Below are positions 38,951 through 61,781 of a stretch of DNA of 64,000 nt, piece by piece. The stretch's first letter is position 1. Each line of letters starts with the position of its first letter. This stretch comes from Streptococcus mitis subsp. hohhotensis (GTDB lineage Bacteria; Bacillota; Bacilli; Lactobacillales; Streptococcaceae), in NCBI RefSeq assembly GCF_000722775.1, contig NZ_JPFZ01000009.1, positions 372,001 through 436,000 of the forward strand, read 5' to 3'. A program made the translations under genes and the position numbers. Under the pieces are notes generated by a model. It searched no databases. It saw only the letters and a program-made list of their open reading frames with translations, and was not told the DNA's origin.

Positions 38951-41900
38951 ATGAAATTCAGTAAAAAGTATATAGCAGCTGGATCAGCTGTTATCGTATC
39001 CTTGAGTCTTTGTGCCTATGCACTGAACCAGCATCGCTCGCAGGAAAATAAGGACGATAATCGTGTCTCTTATGTGGATGGCAGCCAGTCAAGTCAGAAA
39101 ACTGAAAACCTGACACCAGATCAGGTTAGCCAGAAAGAAGGAATTCAGGCTGAGCAAATTGTCATCAAAATTACAGATCAGGGCTATGTGACGTCACACG
39201 GTGATCACTATCATTACTATAACGGGAAAGTTCCTTATGATGCCCTCTTTAGTGAAGAACTCTTAATGAAGGATCCAAACTACAAACTTAAGGATGGAGA
39301 TATTGTCAATGAGGTCAAGGGTGGTTATATCATCAAGCTCGATGGAAAATATTATGTCTACCTGAAAGATGTAGCTCATGCTGATAATGTTCGAACTAAA
39401 GATGAAATCAATCGTCAAAAACAAGAACATGTCAAAGATAATGAGAAGGTCAGCGCTGATGTTGCTGTAGCAAGGTCTCAGGGACGCTATACGACAGATG
39501 ATGGTTATGTCTTTAATCCAGCTGATATTATCGAAGATACGGGTGATGCTTATATCGTTCCTCATGGAGGTCACTATCACTATATTCCAAAAAGTGATTT
39601 ATCTGCCAGTGAGTTAGCAGCAGCGAAAGCTCATCTAGCGGGCAAAAATACGCAACCGAGTCAGTTAAGCTATTCTTCAACAGCTAGTGACAATACTACG
39701 CAAGCAATAGAGCAAGGATCAACTAGCACGTCAGAAAGTAAGACTGAAAATCTCCAAAGTCTTTTGAAAGAACTCTATGATTCACCTAGCGACCAACGTT
39801 ACAGTGAATCAGATGGTCTGGTCTTTGACCCTGCTAAGATTATCAGTCGTACACCAAATGGAGTTGCGATTCCGCACGGCGACCATTACCATTTTATTCC
39901 TTACAGCAAGCTCTCTCCTTTAGAAGAAAAGATTGCTAGAATGGTGCCTATCGGTGGAACTGGTTATACGTTCTCTACAAATGAAAAACCTAATAAAGTA
40001 GCGTCTAGTCTAGGAAGTCTTTCAAGCAATCCTTCTTCTTCAACGACAAGTAAGGAACTCTCTTCAGCATCTGATGGTTATATTTTTAATCCAAAAGATA
40101 TCGTTGAAGAAACGGCTACAGCTTATATCGTCAGACATGGTGATCATTTCCATTACATTCCTAAGGCGAATCAAATTGGGCAACCGACTCTTCCAAATAA
40201 TGGGTTAACAACACCTTCGCCATCTCTTCCAGTCAATCCTGGTGTTTCACATGAGGAACATGAAGAAGGTGGACACGGCTTTGATGCTAATCGTATTATT
40301 GCGGAAGATGAGTCAGGATTCATCATGTCACATGGTGACCATAATCATTACTTCTTCAAGAAGGACTTGACAGCAGACCAAATCAAGGCAGCGCAAGACC
40401 ACTTGAAAGGGGCAAATACAGCAACACCAAATCCAGCTCATGATGACGATCACGATGAAGATCATCATGGACACCATCATGGGAAAGACCATGATCACGG
40501 TTTTGATGCCAATCGTGTCATCAGTGAGGATGAGCAAGGATTTGTCATGAGTCATGGAGACCACAATCATTACTTCTTCAAGAAAGATTTGACAGCTGAA
40601 CAAATTAAGGCAGCTCAGGATCATTTGAAAACACATCATGATGCAGAGCCTGTAAAACCTCTTGCTAAAACGGTAGAGTCTTTCTCAAGAGATGCTAGCG
40701 ATGAAGAAAAAATAGCTTACATTTCTAAGACCTATGGTGTTCCACTTGAAGCGATTAGAATTTCAAACGGATTCTTTGTTTTTGGAAATCCAGACCAAGC
40801 CTACGATCCAACTCATATCCATCCCTATGCTGTTCGTAAGGAACACGTTCGTTTGCCACTTCAAACTGGCAATCCAGAGCTTGATTTCCTAAATGAACTC
40901 TATACCACTGCTTTGCGAGATGGTGTGTCTCCTTATAGCTTACAGGTAGAAAATGGTAGTTTTGTGATTCCTCATGGCGACCACAATCACTACATCAAGG
41001 TTCAAACGAAGGGCTATGAAGTAGCTTTGAAAAACAAGATTCCAGCCCTACAATCCAATTATCAACCTGGAGCTTTTGATGAGAAGGCAGTCTTGGAAAA
41101 AGTAGATCAACTTCTAGCTGATAGCAGAAGTATCTACAAAGACAAGCCTATCGAACAAAGACAGATTGAGTTAGCCTTAGGTCAGTTTACTGAGAACATG
41201 AAGAAACTGGCAACTAACTCTACAGCAGGTTATCTTGCAACCCTTGATCTCTTTGATAAGCAATATATCCATATTGATGAAAGTGTTAAGCCTGTTAAAA
41301 CAAGCGCTCTAGATAAGAAATATCAAGCCTTGATTGATAAAATCAATACACTAGATACAGATTCTTATGGACTTCCTAAGAAGGACCTTCTCGTTCGACT
41401 ACAGGAAGCTAAGTTGGCTAAAGATGAGGCTGCTTTAGCAGCGGTTGAATCACAACTTCAAGCTCTTCAAGACTTTAATGACCGAACAGGTGTTACAACT
41501 GTAGAATACATCAAGTACTTCTACGAACACGTAAATGACGGTCGTTTGAGTGATGAACTTCGAAACAAAGTAGCTCAGTTGACTTGGACTTTGTATCAAT
41601 CACAATCCTTCCTTAAGGCAGCAGAATTGAACAAATTATTCCCAAGCATCTATCAAGCAAAACAAGAAGTAGAAGAAGCTTTGAAAGCTCAACCAACTAC
41701 TGCTAAATCGACTAAGACAGTTCTAGATACTGAAAAAGTTGATAATCAAAGTGCCAAGACAGCTATTTATGGCTTCTTGAAAGAATTGTACGGAGACTTT
41801 ATGCCTGAAGAACATGTCAATCATGTTAGCAAGGAAGAAGTAGAAAGCCTCTTGAGCAAGGCAACTCAACTCTTGGAACAAATCCAAGAAGAAGGAATCA

Positions 41901-42469
41901 GACAATCCTTGGCAGAAGAAGTAGAAAATCTTAAAGCTGCTACAAACAAGGCTGATGCAGACTTGGATGAAGTAAACAGTCAGGTGAAAGATGTCTTGAC
42001 TCGTATCGCTAGCGCCCTTCAACAAGAGAAGGAAAATACTGAGCAAGATCCTCAGACACTTGTACTCTATCAAAAACTCTATGATATCCTCATGTCGCTT
42101 CACGCTTACTTAGAAAACAATAAGGGTTCTGATGAGGACTTTGACAAGGTAGATGCTTTACTAGATCAACTTTCTGCCAAGAGTAAAGATAAGGCTGCTT
42201 TACTTGAATTGACAAAAGCTATTCTGGTCTTGAATCAAGAAATCAAGTCAAAATCAAGCGTAACTGAAGAAGCAACTCCAGCAGCAAAGTCTGAGAAGAC
42301 CAGTACTGAAACTGAAACATCAGCAGCTGCGGAATCTAACAGTGAAACTGCAAATGACGAAAACAAACCAAGCAACACAACAGATTCTAAACCTGCTGAA
42401 TCAACTTCAGAAAAGGGAACAACAGAATCTACAACAAGTACTGGAAATCAAGAAAAACCAGTAGAATAA
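38951..42469 (+). CDS. Pneumococcal histidine triad (Pht) family surface protein, PhtE-like N-terminus
   Basis: A 1172-residue surface protein that binds zinc and, in pneumococci, aids zinc scavenging and adhesion and is an antigen. The N-terminal signal contains SLSLC (Cys21), a possible lipid-attachment site. Seven HxxHxH triads are visible, starting at residues 83, 205, 309, 396, 461, 535 and 675, plus a His/Asp-rich linker at about 497-516 (HDDDHDEDHHGHHHGKDHDH). Residues 442-488 and 516-562 are a near-duplicate unit around HGDHNHYFFKKDLT. From about 700 on it is helical, and it ends in a Ser/Thr/Glu-rich tail without LPXTG. The N-terminal 480 residues resemble PhtE; the rest resembles other Pht proteins. 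Next to ciaH, it has a strong zinc-box promoter. Confidence 0.85.
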   Translation: MKFSKKYIAAGSAVIVSLSLCAYALNQHRSQENKDDNRVSYVDGSQSSQKTENLTPDQVSQKEGIQAEQIVIKITDQGYVTSHGDHYHYYNGKVPYDALFSEELLMKDPNYKLKDGDIVNEVKGGYIIKLDGKYYVYLKDVAHADNVRTKDEINRQKQEHVKDNEKVSADVAVARSQGRYTTDDGYVFNPADIIEDTGDAYIVPHGGHYHYIPKSDLSASELAAAKAHLAGKNTQPSQLSYSSTASDNTTQAIEQGSTSTSESKTENLQSLLKELYDSPSDQRYSESDGLVFDPAKIISRTPNGVAIPHGDHYHFIPYSKLSPLEEKIARMVPIGGTGYTFSTNEKPNKVASSLGSLSSNPSSSTTSKELSSASDGYIFNPKDIVEETATAYIVRHGDHFHYIPKANQIGQPTLPNNGLTTPSPSLPVNPGVSHEEHEEGGHGFDANRIIAEDESGFIMSHGDHNHYFFKKDLTADQIKAAQDHLKGANTATPNPAHDDDHDEDHHGHHHGKDHDHGFDANRVISEDEQGFVMSHGDHNHYFFKKDLTAEQIKAAQDHLKTHHDAEPVKPLAKTVESFSRDASDEEKIAYISKTYGVPLEAIRISNGFFVFGNPDQAYDPTHIHPYAVRKEHVRLPLQTGNPELDFLNELYTTALRDGVSPYSLQVENGSFVIPHGDHNHYIKVQTKGYEVALKNKIPALQSNYQPGAFDEKAVLEKVDQLLADSRSIYKDKPIEQRQIELALGQFTENMKKLATNSTAGYLATLDLFDKQYIHIDESVKPVKTSALDKKYQALIDKINTLDTDSYGLPKKDLLVRLQEAKLAKDEAALAAVESQLQALQDFNDRTGVTTVEYIKYFYEHVNDGRLSDELRNKVAQLTWTLYQSQSFLKAAELNKLFPSIYQAKQEVEEALKAQPTTAKSTKTVLDTEKVDNQSAKTAIYGFLKELYGDFMPEEHVNHVSKEEVESLLSKATQLLEQIQEEGIRQSLAEEVENLKAATNKADADLDEVNSQVKDVLTRIASALQQEKENTEQDPQTLVLYQKLYDILMSLHAYLENNKGSDEDFDKVDALLDQLSAKSKDKAALLELTKAILVLNQEIKSKSSVTEEATPAAKSEKTSTETETSAAAESNSETANDENKPSNTTDSKPAESTSEKGTTESTTSTGNQEKPVE

Positions 42470-42754: not shown

Positions 42755-44272
42755 TTATAAATTAACTACCTCCAGACCGTGTTCTGTCAGGCGGTAGATG
42801 GTCGAACAGACCTCTTTTAAGAAACGACGGTCATGTGAAACAGTGATGAGACCGCCTGGATAGGTTGCAAAGAGTTTTCTGATTTGGGGTTGAGAAGTGG
42901 GAGAAAAGTTTCGTGTGGGTTCATCGAGAAGGAGAAAGTTTGGTTTTCGTAGCACTAAATCCAAAAGCAGGAGTTTTCCCTGTTGTCCGCCAGATAAGGA
43001 GCGAATTTGATGCTGCATTTCTGGATAACTGAAATTGAGACTGGCTAAGTGGGATTGGATTTTCTGCAGTTCCTCTTTTTCCCCAGTTTTGCTGAGATAG
43101 GCTATTGGTGATAAATCCAATTGCAGTTTTTTGTGGTAATCTTGTGGCATAAAACCAAGCGAAATCTCTCTTTTATCATTAAGAAGTTGCTGTAACTTGG
43201 CTAACAGAGTTGATTTCCCAATACCATTTGGGCCGATGATACCGATTTTTTCTTGGCCACGGACAGTTAGTTGTAGTCCCTGAGACAAAATTCGCTCGCC
43301 GATGGACAAATTTTCTTTTTCCAGTTGGATTAAGACTTTAGAAGCCGGTAATGGCTGTATATCTGAGAAGAAAAGTCTGATTTCTTCCTCTTCAAGTGGT
43401 TTTTGGGTCATAGACTGAGCTGCCTTTTCAATACGTTTTTCTTGAGAGAGAACATTTTTCATCTTTTTAGCTAATAAGCGACCGGCAGTACTGTCTTTAG
43501 TAGCTCGAAGCGCAGTTTCTACATTTTGCTTGACTCGTCGATGTTTTTCCATGGTTTTATCGTAGGCTCTTTGGTCATTAGCAGCTTGCTGGCTTTGTTT
43601 GGCAAAATTAGCCTTTCTCTGCTCACTATAGCGATCATAGTCTAAATGCTCTACTAGCGTTTCCGCTTCTTTACGGTGCTTGACCAGTCGCAAGTGGACA
43701 ATAGTGTCTGCCGTTTGAGACAGAAAGTCCTCGTCATGGGAAATGAAAATAACGGTTTGCCTCATCTTCTGTATCTGTCTTTTTAGCCAATCAACCGTCT
43801 CAAGGTCTAGGTCATTTGAAGGTTCATCTAAAAATAGAATCTCAAAGGGTTTGGCTAACTCATGGATGAGCTGAATTTTCAAAGCTTCGCCCCCTGATAG
43901 ACTGCCAATCTCTTGGTTGCTAGCGAAACGATTGCTATCAAAATGCAATTCCTCAGCCAAACGATAGAGGACACTGTAATCTAAATCGATAGTATCTAAA
44001 AAGAAGTAGTCGTGTAGAGTTTTCTTTTTCAGGTCCTCAGGGACTTTTTGAGGAATGTAGGCTATTGATTGATAATCAGATTGAATGTCTCCCCTGATAG
44101 TGAAATCAGGCAAAGCTTCCCCCATTAAAGTTTTAAGTAAGGTTGATTTGCCATTTCCTTCCTCTCCAATAATAGCTACCTTTTCCCCATCCTGGATGGT
44201 CATGCTTAGATCAGAGACAAGGTCTCGTAAATCTTTGTTTTGTGTGATGGTCAGGTGATTGATTTTTATCAT
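42755..44272 (-). CDS. ABC-F family ATPase (ribosome-acting; possible antibiotic-resistance or translation factor)
   Basis: A 505-residue soluble protein with two ABC domains and no membrane helices. Walker A motifs are IGEEGNGKSTLL and IGPNGIGKSTLL, signatures are LSGGEALKIQL and LSGGQQGKLLL, and Walker B pairs are ILFLDEPSNDLD and FLLLDEPTRNF. A charged linker of about 90 residues joins them. ABC-F proteins act on the ribosome, and some give resistance to macrolides, lincosamides or streptogramins; this one cannot be placed in a resistance class by eye. The ATG at 44272 follows AGAAAGGAC. A terminator-like hairpin and a long leader lie upstream, suggesting attenuation control. Confidence 0.85.
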   Translation of the reverse strand: MIKINHLTITQNKDLRDLVSDLSMTIQDGEKVAIIGEEGNGKSTLLKTLMGEALPDFTIRGDIQSDYQSIAYIPQKVPEDLKKKTLHDYFFLDTIDLDYSVLYRLAEELHFDSNRFASNQEIGSLSGGEALKIQLIHELAKPFEILFLDEPSNDLDLETVDWLKRQIQKMRQTVIFISHDEDFLSQTADTIVHLRLVKHRKEAETLVEHLDYDRYSEQRKANFAKQSQQAANDQRAYDKTMEKHRRVKQNVETALRATKDSTAGRLLAKKMKNVLSQEKRIEKAAQSMTQKPLEEEEIRLFFSDIQPLPASKVLIQLEKENLSIGERILSQGLQLTVRGQEKIGIIGPNGIGKSTLLAKLQQLLNDKREISLGFMPQDYHKKLQLDLSPIAYLSKTGEKEELQKIQSHLASLNFSYPEMQHQIRSLSGGQQGKLLLLDLVLRKPNFLLLDEPTRNFSPTSQPQIRKLFATYPGGLITVSHDRRFLKEVCSTIYRLTEHGLEVVNL

Positions 44273-44308
44273 ATGATTGTCCTTTCTAGAATGTTGATAT
44301 TGCATAAC

Positions 44309-44335
44309 AAAAAGCTCTACTTTACCTAGTAGAGC
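44309..44335 (-). terminator. Attenuator-like terminator before the ABC-F gene
   Basis: On the minus strand GCTCTACT-AGGTAA-AGTAGAGC is a perfect 8-bp stem with 6-nt loop followed by TTTTTG, ending about 24 nt before the AAAGGA ribosome site. Nothing else ends here, so it probably controls the ABC-F gene itself. Confidence 0.7.
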
Positions 44336-44363
44336 CAAAGTTTATGTCAAAAAAACTCTATTA

Positions 44364-44559
44364 ATACTCTTCGAAAATCTCTTCAAACCACGTCAGCGTC
44401 GCCTTACCGTAGGTATGGTTACTGACTTCGTCAGTTCTATCCACAACCTCAAAACAGTGTTTTGAGCTGACTTTGTCAGTTCTATCTACAACCTCAAAGC
44501 AGTGCTTTGAGCAACCTGCGGCTAGCTTCCTAGTTTGCTTTTTGATTTTCATTGAGTAT
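44364..44559. repeat. BOX element (boxA-boxB-boxC form)
   Basis: 196 bp, about 46 bp longer than the other three copies, because it carries one boxB unit (TCAAAACAGTGTTTTGAGCT followed by GACTTTGTCAG) between boxA and boxC. Orientation is opposite to the copies at 7149 and 9794. It lies inside the ABC-F leader. Confidence 0.9.
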
Positions 44560-44644
44560 AAAATGCCAGAAAAAGAGCACAAAAGAGCACACAAAAAGAG
44601 ACAAAAACAAGATCTACTAAATAAAGGTTCTTTATTTGATAGGC

Positions 44645-44656
44645 TTAGTTGTTCAT
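44645..44656 (-). CDS. Three-codon upstream ORF (Met-Asn-Asn)
   Basis: ATG-AAC-AAC-TAA, preceded on the minus strand by GGAGG (10 nt upstream) and a closer GGGAG. It starts about 25 nt after the predicted transcription start. Very short leader ORFs of this kind sense ribosome-targeting antibiotics in some ABC-F and erm leaders; here the function is inferred from position only. Confidence 0.45.
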   Translation of the reverse strand: MNN

Positions 44657-44687
44657 GTCTCCCTTACCTCCGAGTATTAGTATCTTT

Positions 44688-44716
44688 ATACTATACCTTT
44701 AAGGAAATTTTGTCAA
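44688..44716 (-). promoter_or_regulatory. Consensus promoter for the ABC-F leader
   Basis: On the minus strand: -35 TTGACA (44716-44711), 17-bp spacer and -10 TAGTAT (44693-44688), giving a start near 44681. It lies just after the 3' end of the upstream minus-strand gene. Confidence 0.8.
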
Positions 44717-44739
44717 CAGAAAACTGGAAATTCCAAGTT

Positions 44740-45069
44740 CTAAAATCCAAAAACAGGTCCATAAAGAGTCAGTACGTGTTTGACATGCTCGTAATGGAAT
44801 TTGTCGTAGTTTCGCCAAGCAATGCGTGCTTGGTCGTTCAGTTTTAGGCTACCTAATCCAATCAGAAGACTGGTGCGTTGGTAAAATTTCTCAAGGTCGA
44901 TTAAGATACTGTTGTTCAACTTTTCCGCTTTTTTGAGCTCTTGCAGAGTAGTATTTAGCAGCTCTTGCAGTCGAATATCATCTGCCGTACCTTGTTTACA
45001 GTTTTGGTAGCTTTTATTTAACTCGGATAGGAGTTGGGTTGCATTTGTAATGAGTTCTTTGTTTTCCAT
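44740..45069 (-). CDS. Small helical cytoplasmic protein of unknown function
   Basis: A 109-residue all-helical protein without signal peptide or membrane segment. It reads MENKELITNATQLLSELNKS at the start and ends with an aromatic/His-rich tail (YDKFHYEHVKHVLTLYGPVF). Size and four-helix appearance are reminiscent of bacteriocin immunity proteins, but no bacteriocin gene is near and I see no signature, so I leave it unassigned. The ribosome site is AGGAGG. It is divergent from the DUF177 gene and precedes the ABC-F promoter on the same strand. Confidence 0.6.
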   Translation of the reverse strand: MENKELITNATQLLSELNKSYQNCKQGTADDIRLQELLNTTLQELKKAEKLNNSILIDLEKFYQRTSLLIGLGSLKLNDQARIAWRNYDKFHYEHVKHVLTLYGPVFGF

Positions 45070-46471: not shown

Positions 46472-47135
<664 letters not shown>

Positions 47136-61011: not shown

Positions 61012-61781
61012 GGCTCTTTGTCAACTGTAGTGGGTTGAAGAAAAGCTAAGATCTAGAAAGGGCAAATTTTGTCCTTTCTTTTTTGATATTGCGAATCGTG
61101 GAAATCTGTTTTTTGAAGTTTTCAAAGTTCCGAAAATCAAAGGTATTGTATTGGATAAGATTATTAGTCTCTCCTAATTTTATGTTGGAATAAGGTAATT
61201 GCAGGGCGGTGATGCTTTCTTTAGAAAGATTCTAAAAAAGCCTGAAAGCAAGAATGAGCTAGCTCTAAATTCTTCTCAATGAGTACGCAAAACCTTACTC
61301 TAGAAGTAAAAATGTAAGAGATTATAGTGGTGCTTTCATTCTTCTTAGCAACTCAAGAGTGCCTCCACAATCTCTTTAGTAGTTAAGCACACACGAAAAG
61401 TATCTTTACTACTATGCTGTTAGTAGGGTTTGATGACCATGTACTCATGAAATCTTTGATTAAATTGCTTCATGGTTTGCCATGACTTACAACTTGCCTT
61501 AAGTATTGAAATAGAACAGTCTGGTGGACTATTTTAGCCGGAATTTAGGAATATAATAACAAATGGTAAAAAAGATTAAGAATGATTTTAGCGTTTAGGA
61601 CTTAGTATGAGAAAAAAGTTTTCAATATCAAGCAGTTGTAATAAAATGTAATTGTTCCATAGGATTCTTTCTAATGATTGTTTGATCGCTTTTCATTATA
61701 GATTTTATGGGACTTTTTCTACATCAAAATAGGCTCCATAATATCTATATGGGATTTACCCACTATAAATATTACAGAGCC
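61012..61781 (-). pseudogene. ISL3-family (IS1167-like) insertion sequence relic
   Basis: A 770-bp element bounded by GGCTCTTTGTCAACTGTAGT on the left and, in reverse at the right, GGCTCTGTAATATTTATAGT; both continue GGGT, the ISL3 terminal repeat. On the minus strand a decayed transposase C-terminus is readable (YSNIKLGETNNLIQYNTFDF then FRNFENFKKQISTIRNI, about 61085-61200), and another fragment MKQFNQRFHEYM near 61480. The transposase N-terminal half is missing and many stops occur. It fills the gap between vicX and ybaB; no other gene is visible there. Confidence 0.75.

Follow-up and report, generated by a model that had tools for sequence, protein, structure and literature searches.

A 64,000-nt stretch of Streptococcus mitis subsp. 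hohhotensis DNA (contig NZ_JPFZ01000009.1; hereafter the window) carries on its minus strand an intact gene for a 505-residue ABC-F ATPase (42755..44272), preceded by a leader that is the subject of the present analysis. The original prediction held this leader to be an attenuator of the vmlR kind, with a three-codon upstream open reading frame (uORF), placed before the gene that it regulates. The anatomy, conservation and folding of the leader and the ends of published RNAs agree with that view, and it is considered likely that the leader is a ribosome-mediated, VmlR-type transcription attenuator of an intrinsic ABC-F gene, the probable inducers being drugs that stall initiating ribosomes.

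Direct reading of the minus strand recovered each of the elements first proposed. A sigma-70-type promoter, TTGACA-N17-TAGTAT (44688..44716; TTGACA at 44716-44711 and TAGTAT at 44693-44688), predicts a transcription start at 44681. It is followed by the Shine-Dalgarno (SD) sequence GGAGG (44667..44671), the uORF ATG-AAC-AAC-TAA, encoding Met-Asn-Asn (MNN; 44645..44656), and an 8-bp hairpin, AAATAAAG/CTTTATTT (44637-44619), that starts 7 nt past the uORF stop codon. Immediately ahead of the ribosome site of the ABC-F gene lies a terminator, T2 (44309..44336), with the stem GCTCTAC:GTAGAGC (hairpin 44336-44314) and a run of five T residues (44313-44309), which was also called by a terminator scan. 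In folds of the leader, the 8-bp hairpin forms the tip of a longer hairpin, P1 (44594..44665; base AAGGGAGACA:TGTCTCTTTT), whose base encloses the uORF start codon, with the GGAGG just 5' of it. P1 carries its own T5 tract (44597-44593) and is thus a possible terminator, T1. The 3' arm of P1 contains a candidate antiterminator strand, alpha (CTTTATTTAGTAGA, 44613..44626), that is complementary over 14 consecutive nucleotides to beta (TCTACTAGGTAAAG, 44320..44333), which comprises the 5' arm and loop of T2. A BOX element (boxA, two boxB, boxC; 44362..44560) occupies the stretch between P1 and T2, as had been reported, although it measures 199 bp here and not 196 bp. The segment 44583..44681 matches the Rfam family RF02436 (SpF43_sRNA) with 112.2 bits against a gathering cut-off of 70, and the first base of the model match, 44681, is the start predicted from the promoter.

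Another ATG, in frame with the ABC-F start adopted in this analysis, is found 33 nt ahead of it (44305-44272, minus strand), and the D39 coordinates imply an annotated start 33 nt upstream (PMC6212727). In the 19F locus (L208), an in-frame stop codon directly follows the equivalent of the upstream ATG, so the downstream ATG, with its ribosome site AGAAAGG, is the likelier start.

Simple scans of the stretch alone returned two promoter-like sites, the leader promoter among them, against 1.2 in shuffled sequences and one terminator-like site (T2) against 0.3. Such counts from a single sequence would alone prove little, and the reality of the elements rests on comparison across loci.

Conservation of the uORF and hairpins

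A search of 284 Streptococcus genomes with RF02436 gave matches in 181 at E <= 0.1, with 125 above the cut-off. The analysis covered 149 sense-strand SpF43 loci (L001-L019 and L023-L152); the 32 other genomes, mostly with weak matches, were kept outside the counts, and antisense matches in three genomes (G034, G007 and G029; L020-L022) were removed ahead of counting because P1 is nearly palindromic. An ABC-F gene was directly downstream on the same strand in 146 of the 149 loci, with 52-100% identity to the window protein over the part read. The remaining three loci (L005, L023 and L073) are cut by contig ends, and the ABC-F gene is found on another contig in those genomes. The pattern ATG-A-x-x-AA[C/T]-TAA, encoding MNN or MKN, followed a GGAGG in all 146 loci, down to 52% protein identity.

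This set was extended with 30 orthologues, 40-56% identical, that the authors picked among genomes in which SpF43 gave no strong match; G105, among these, had a weak RF02436 match (E 0.00363). Here, a short uORF was defined as an SD sequence with an open reading frame of 2-5 codons within 500 nt upstream of the gene, and both the uORF and T2 were located by regular expressions together with simple stem rules. A short uORF with its own SD, as is characteristic of VmlR-type leaders, was present in 172 of 176 orthologue loci, compared with a mean of 10.1 (maximum 16, 20 rounds) in dinucleotide-shuffled upstream regions. Over the 176 loci, MNN was found in 134 and MKN in 23, with MDNNK, MDSNK, MRN, MIN, MYI and others making up the remainder; some of the uORFs called by regular expression (VLN and two VH) may be chance matches or in the wrong frame. 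The two loci called VH (L168 and L174) read TTG-AAA-AAY-TAA by eye. Four loci lacked a match (L153, L157, L176 and L177), and in L153 the sequence MDSNK with a different SD was evident by eye. Of 172 loci, 157 had a promoter-like pair ahead of the uORF, as judged with a permissive pattern used without a shuffled control. Among 78 named loci, many from species already counted, a strict pattern detected a short uORF in all 54 streptococcal loci and in 3 of 24 others. Loss of the MNN frame and hairpins in close relatives, the outcome that the original prediction had named as contrary to it, was therefore not observed; both are kept.

The uORF start was enclosed by P1 in 166 of 172 folds. Four or more U residues at the 3' base of P1 were present in 94 of 96 leaders at >=80% protein identity, and in 25/28, 10/35 and 1/13 of the groups of successively lower identity. 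It follows from this distribution that termination at T1 would characterize the clade of the window and its nearest relatives, and that a role for P1 as an anti-antiterminator would be wider. T1 would probably act as a first terminator, and P1 occupies the position of the first hairpin of a VmlR-type leader, with an anti-antiterminator role predicted in silico. When the P1 stretch was folded alone, the GGAGG was unpaired; in the free full-length fold its mean pairing was 0.67. A T2-like hairpin with a U-tract, the intrinsic terminator expected before a gene controlled in this way, was found in 167 of 172 loci, five loci being without T2 by the simple rule.

The covariation of these hairpins was assessed on A2, an alignment of 20 naturally insert-free leaders. 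All cells at the seven pairs of T2 were paired, with double changes at three pairs. For P1 and T2 together, 27 double-changed cells were observed against 9.2 in shuffled alignments, the covariation score was 0.168 against 0.097, and 86.1% of cells were paired against 81.3%; each of these values was reached by 0 of 500 shuffles.

Some variations on the leader were also noted. In L135-L137, the ABC-F ribosome site lies inside a small palindrome, GACCTAGGAGGTC, which suggests that translation is additionally regulated in that clade. For the leader, the idea that T2 masks the ribosome site of the ABC-F gene was considered and rejected, as that site was read to lie outside T2. In 18 of 20 upstream regions from other Lactobacillales, neither uORF pattern gave a match. 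By eye, several orthologues from Lactobacillales other than Streptococcus (among L183-L195 and L199) have four-codon frames, for example ATG-TAC-ACT-ATC-TAA (Met-Tyr-Thr-Ile), together with complementary stretches, and the leader theme may extend outside the genus.

Alpha:beta complementarity and predicted folding

The 14-nt complementarity between alpha (44626-44613) and beta (44333-44320) in the window is matched in other clades by pairings with quite different letters, for example in L134, L164, L178 and L161. When the hairpin regions were shuffled, a duplex as good as the natural one was obtained in no more than 10 of 200 shuffles for all 40 distinct pairs at >=80% protein identity, all 10 at 60-80%, 13 of the 14 at 50-60% and 4 of the 9 below 50%. 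For 14 representatives chosen by the authors, the total energy of each alpha with its own beta was reached by 0 of 20000 random pairings; the best-ranked partner was the own beta in 8 of 14 cases and the own alpha likewise in 8 of 14. Sliding the partner of alpha along A2 lowered pairing from 88.5% to 30-53%.

The effect of a ribosome on the uORF was simulated by masking part of the leader during folding. In the free fold of the window leader (44681-44305), the probability of T2 was 0.999 and that of the antiterminator 0.000. When positions -20 to +16 relative to the uORF start were masked, the antiterminator rose to 0.967 and T2 fell to 0.023. The +16 boundary was modelled on an initiating ribosome, the vmlR toeprint lying 16 nt downstream of the A of the start codon (PMC9226507). 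Across 156 distinct leaders, a flip was scored when T2 was above 0.5 in the free fold and below 0.5 in the masked fold. At >=80% protein identity, 86 of 92 leaders flipped. A mask of equal size placed on the spacer brought T2 below 0.5 in 0 of 137 leaders, and a shuffled hairpin stretch (a plain letter shuffle, as also used for the cut RNAs) combined with the ribosome mask flipped 1 of 156. In RNAs cut to end before the 3' arm of T2, masking added at least five alpha:beta pairs in 151 of 155 cases, compared with 17 of 136 when the mask was on the spacer. Taken as modelled behavior, these results are consistent with alpha:beta being an alternative antiterminator that would be freed by occupancy of the uORF.

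SpF43 and published pneumococcal RNAs

The RNA matched by RF02436 has been described more than once in Streptococcus pneumoniae. F43 was mapped to TIGR4 1216148-1216246 on the plus strand, 99 nt between SP1281 and SP1282, was confirmed by Northern blotting according to a table in that study and was one of the 15 deleted there (PMC3395615). A 2025 survey carries F43/Spd_sr63 as candidate M52, matched in 385/385 pneumococcal genomes; F43, Spd_sr63 and M52 thus form one entry (PMC12323649). In the D39V annotation, srf-19 spans 1170746-1170923 (178 nt) and is given as an "ncRNA of unknown function" (non-coding RNA) with the footnote "alternative terminator present" (PMC6212727). By coordinate arithmetic, the start of F43 falls at 1170747 in D39V, ∼1 nt from that of srf-19; the D39W-to-D39V shift of 458 used here was taken from one listed single nucleotide polymorphism (SNP), with the column order of the listing inferred.

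In the 19F leader (L208), the ABC-F ATG is 213 nt from the start, and the U-tracts of T1 and T2 occupy nt 85-89 and 173-177, respectively. By coordinates, F43 (98-99 nt) ends ∼10 nt past T1, and the end of srf-19 is nt 177 from the first base of F43, on the U-tract of T2. This fit assumes equal leaders, L208 being from 19F and the published ends, placed from listed coordinates, being from TIGR4 and D39. RNA ends near both hairpins, from cultures apparently free of ribosome-targeting drugs (PMC3395615, PMC6212727), would also be produced if T1 and T2 were plain terminators that set a fixed low expression with no control by the uORF. Such an arrangement is scarcely credible, given that the uORF sits in an arm of P1 and is conserved together with it, and that the 3' arm of P1 matches T2 across diverged clades.

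Rfam files RF02436 under the type "Gene; sRNA" (small RNA), and SpF43 might accordingly be a free-standing sRNA acting on other mRNAs, its position before the ABC-F gene being incidental. The Northern signal for F43 (PMC3395615) favors such a view, as does the fact that M52 stayed listed in the 2025 survey after M8 and M12 were dropped as cis elements (PMC12323649). Nevertheless, a free-standing role is quite improbable and was rejected as the main one on the grounds that SpF43 sits immediately ahead of one and the same gene, on its strand, with only loci cut by contig ends departing from this, and that both uORF and terminator are conserved ahead of that gene. In addition, no promoter-like site was detected by the scan in the interval from T1 to the ribosome site of the gene; a weak one (9/12) overlaps the gene start. 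In contrast to the catalogued sRNA or ncRNA of unknown function, SpF43 is therefore most likely the ABC-F mRNA leader, released by early termination, and would be better filed as a cis-acting leader. If so, a curated family would be corrected, and the presence of this RNA among the putative sRNAs of 385/385 pneumococcal genomes (PMC12323649) would be accounted for.

No published description of a uORF or attenuator at this gene was found in a search of mainly open literature, although Dar et al. 2016 might contain one. The terms "ABC-F" and "ABCF" are absent from the main text of two ncRNA discovery papers (PMC8632094, PMC11109978). A study of paired isolates reported a SNP 61 bp upstream of SP_1282 (PMC4243769).

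Proposed mechanism, the ABC-F protein and the BOX element

A mechanism that would account for these features is as follows. The RNA would begin at 44681. Without stress, a ribosome would translate Met-Asn-Asn and depart, P1 would close and RNA polymerase would halt at T1 or T2. A ribosome held on the mini-ORF would cover the 5' arm of P1, so that T1 could not form and alpha would be freed; with alpha paired to beta, T2 in turn could not form and the ABC-F mRNA would be completed. The BOX element would mostly fold on itself between alpha and beta and be tolerated. The likely agents holding the ribosome are drugs that block the first peptide bonds (lincosamides, pleuromutilins and streptogramin A).

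The closest parallel is vmlR of Bacillus subtilis, in which an SD precedes the first hairpin, SL-1, and a three-codon uORF (MIN) lies in a bulge of it; SL-1 is an anti-antiterminator and is followed by an alternative antiterminator and the terminator SL-3 before the ABC-F gene (PMC9226507). The streptococcal orthologue L169 also has a MIN uORF. The present leader differs in serving another ABC-F gene, in that P1 bears its own U-tract and may itself terminate, and in that T2 is ∼280 nt downstream of the 3' arm of P1, across the BOX element. Very short uORFs also precede the ARE-ABCF genes cplR of Clostridioides difficile (MR[I/M]), vmlR2 of N. vireti (MK[L/Q]) and lsaA of Enterococcus faecalis (MAGN), with other peptides and genes and, in cplR, whose leader was tested with reporters, with the SD also hidden in the terminator (PMC10201436). 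In the streptococcal msrD/mefA leaders, ribosome stalling likewise blocks an intrinsic terminator before an ABC-F gene, but the MsrDL peptide has six residues and senses cladinose macrolides via the exit tunnel (PMC10314930). MNN would presumably be too short for sensing of that kind. Induction of vmlR is strong with lincomycin and retapamulin and weak with erythromycin and linezolid (PMC9226507). By analogy, lincosamides and pleuromutilins are the expected inducers for a tripeptide uORF, with erythromycin and linezolid expected to be weak.

The window leader would work like a VmlR-type attenuator. It departs from that type in its likely second terminator, T1, whose 3' arm would double as the T2 antiterminator, and in having an insertion site where repeats are tolerated. 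More tentatively, and with slightly more doubt than belief, one three-codon uORF could govern both gates, T1 by lying in its 5' arm and T2 through an antiterminator that is the 3' arm of T1, with a single held ribosome opening both. The 99-nt F43 and the 178-nt srf-19 would then be by-products, and the loop between the gates would be the insertion site for BOX and for an element of ∼95 nt, repeats that can come and go there because they fold on themselves.

Several observations weigh against the proposed attenuator. T1 was missed by the simple terminator scan of the stretch. On A2, the paired percentage of alpha:beta was reached by 183 of 500 column shuffles and its covariation score by 487 of 500 (MAFFT misplaces alpha in suis-type rows), and two measures for P1 and T2 were unexceptional, the number of pairs changed on both sides being reached by 34 of 500 shuffles and that of further pair types by 269 of 500. 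Masking of the window leader only to +14 gave 0.185 for the antiterminator and 0.812 for T2. Outside the clade of the window, a flip was seen in 4/22, 5/33 and 0/9 leaders by falling identity (9/64 overall); the failure to flip in these outer clades, with their stronger T2 hairpins, may arise because equilibrium folding ignores the order of transcription. In the cut RNAs, shuffled hairpins with the mask also showed at least five pairs in 111 of 155 cases, and the raw pair count in such RNAs is thus not specific. The D39V annotation set aside most validation reports of the F43 study over discrepancies (PMC6212727). A literature search on the gene and RNA names found no expression data with drugs for this gene in the material available. 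The level of srf-19 changes in competence (PMC6560143) and in blood and cerebrospinal fluid (CSF) samples (PMC9812572), which are not drug conditions, and the cited passages of these papers and of the paired-isolate study (PMC4243769) do not tie the srf-19 changes or the SP_1282 SNP to drug sensing.

The ABC-F protein itself is also relevant here. Pfam ABC_tran was matched in two stretches of the 505-residue protein. The general NCBIfam model for ribosomal-protection ABC-F proteins, NF000355, scored 305.4 bits and did not reach its cut-off of 380. Scores for the named families, each given with its cut-off, were 207.1/725 for Sal, 195.7/725 for Vga, 194.7/680 for Msr, 178.9/780 for CplR, 154.4/750 for Lsa and 143.2/1450 for OptrA; EttA, at 215.1/599, was above every named resistance family, and no cut-off was reached among the 25 NCBIfam families listed. 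In a search with a profile built from 12 orthologues (A1), the best-matching solved chains were 8buu and 6ha8, each labelled ExpZ, together with 7p48, with YheS and Uup ranking below them; a single-sequence search instead placed YheS first. We take 6ha8 to be VmlR. The accession 8buu is that given in the VmlR2 paper (PMC10201436). A role of the protein in ribosome protection and resistance is plausible on these similarities. A protein match at E <= 1e-90 was found in 247 of 284 Streptococcus genomes, the leader having been checked in the fetched loci.

The score of EttA, the position of the protein below the named resistance cut-offs and the reported variation of srf-19 in competence and in blood and CSF (PMC6560143, PMC9812572) would fit a different signal, in which the uORF responds to low levels of charged Asn-tRNA or initiator tRNA, or to general translation stress, and the ABC-F protein is a housekeeping rescue factor. 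Asn codons are indeed recurrent in the uORFs (MNN, MKN, MRN, MIN and MDNNK). On the other hand, Asn-free variants (MYI, MKI and MDK) exist, the uORF codons are also constrained by pairing within P1, and related leaders in the literature, whose uORFs are just as short, sense drugs (PMC9226507, PMC10201436). Sensing of a non-drug signal is accordingly considered unlikely. Should the drug-responsive attenuator hold, many streptococci would have a probable intrinsic, drug-responsive ribosome-protection gene, inducible lincosamide and pleuromutilin tolerance of streptococci would be testable at a named locus, and repeats would be able to settle inside a working RNA switch.

The last of these points concerns the BOX element, which by motif has the arrangement boxA-boxB(n)-boxC, with 0, 1 or 2 boxB units among loci at this site, and is dispersed, the host genome containing 58 pieces that match BOX, the window copy included. 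In the main clade (97 leaders at >=70% protein identity, with insert type judged by length and motif), 30 leaders had no insert, 15 had BOX, with the two-boxB class of the window in 3 of the 97 loci, and 52 had the other element of ∼95 nt in the same stretch. The latter lies between P1 and T2 in L002, L029, L079 and others. BOX is absent from close relatives such as L037, whose protein is 96% identical.

The original prediction further held that BOX had joined the switch. In support of an active part, the element lies inside the leader, and its 3' end, GAGTATTA (44369-44362, minus strand), is complementary to the RNA 5' end, TAATACTC (44679-44672, minus strand), in the full-length minimum-energy fold. 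The ensemble contains 1.2 expected pairs between BOX and the first 15 bases of the RNA, at low probability. In free folds, the median pairing of the uORF ribosome site is 0.51 in the 30 insert-free leaders, against 0.67 for the 15 with BOX and 0.74 for 48 that carry the other element, and inserts may therefore tune the switch slightly. Parts of BOX are also reported to alter expression of downstream genes (PMC3049150). Against this, both antiterminator strands lie outside BOX, nearly a third of the main-clade leaders are insert-free, and the pairs expected for BOX are mainly internal, at 62.9 of 65.6 without the mask and 60.2 of 66.7 with it, each fold being computed from the RNA start. The flip was alike without and with the element, T2 changing from 0.98 to 0.03 in L037 (204 nt) and from 0.98 to 0.02 in the window (399 nt). 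The part of BOX in the switch was therefore rejected as very improbable, and the element appears to be an optional, tolerated spacer that mostly folds on itself. A composite of BOX and two T-box riboswitches has been described (PMC3049150; Croucher et al. 2011), and the presence of BOX within a regulatory leader is thus not new; the leader there is of another type, and BOX is an optional spacer here.

Open frames run across BOX on both strands, 44361-44594 on the minus strand (77 codons) and 44473-44847 on the plus strand (124 codons); reading frames encoded by BOX have been described (PMC3049150).

Elsewhere in the window, a Rfam match to Srn266, another streptococcal RNA catalogued as an sRNA, lies at 61673-61781 on the plus strand and may merit the same check for a cis-acting leader. 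A PyrR binding element (RF00515, 46470-46602, plus strand) precedes a pyrR-like open reading frame at 46614-47135, the gene name being suggested by this match. A long protein with recurring HGDHYH-type motifs is encoded at 38951-42469 on the plus strand and presumably resembles the streptococcal histidine triad proteins.

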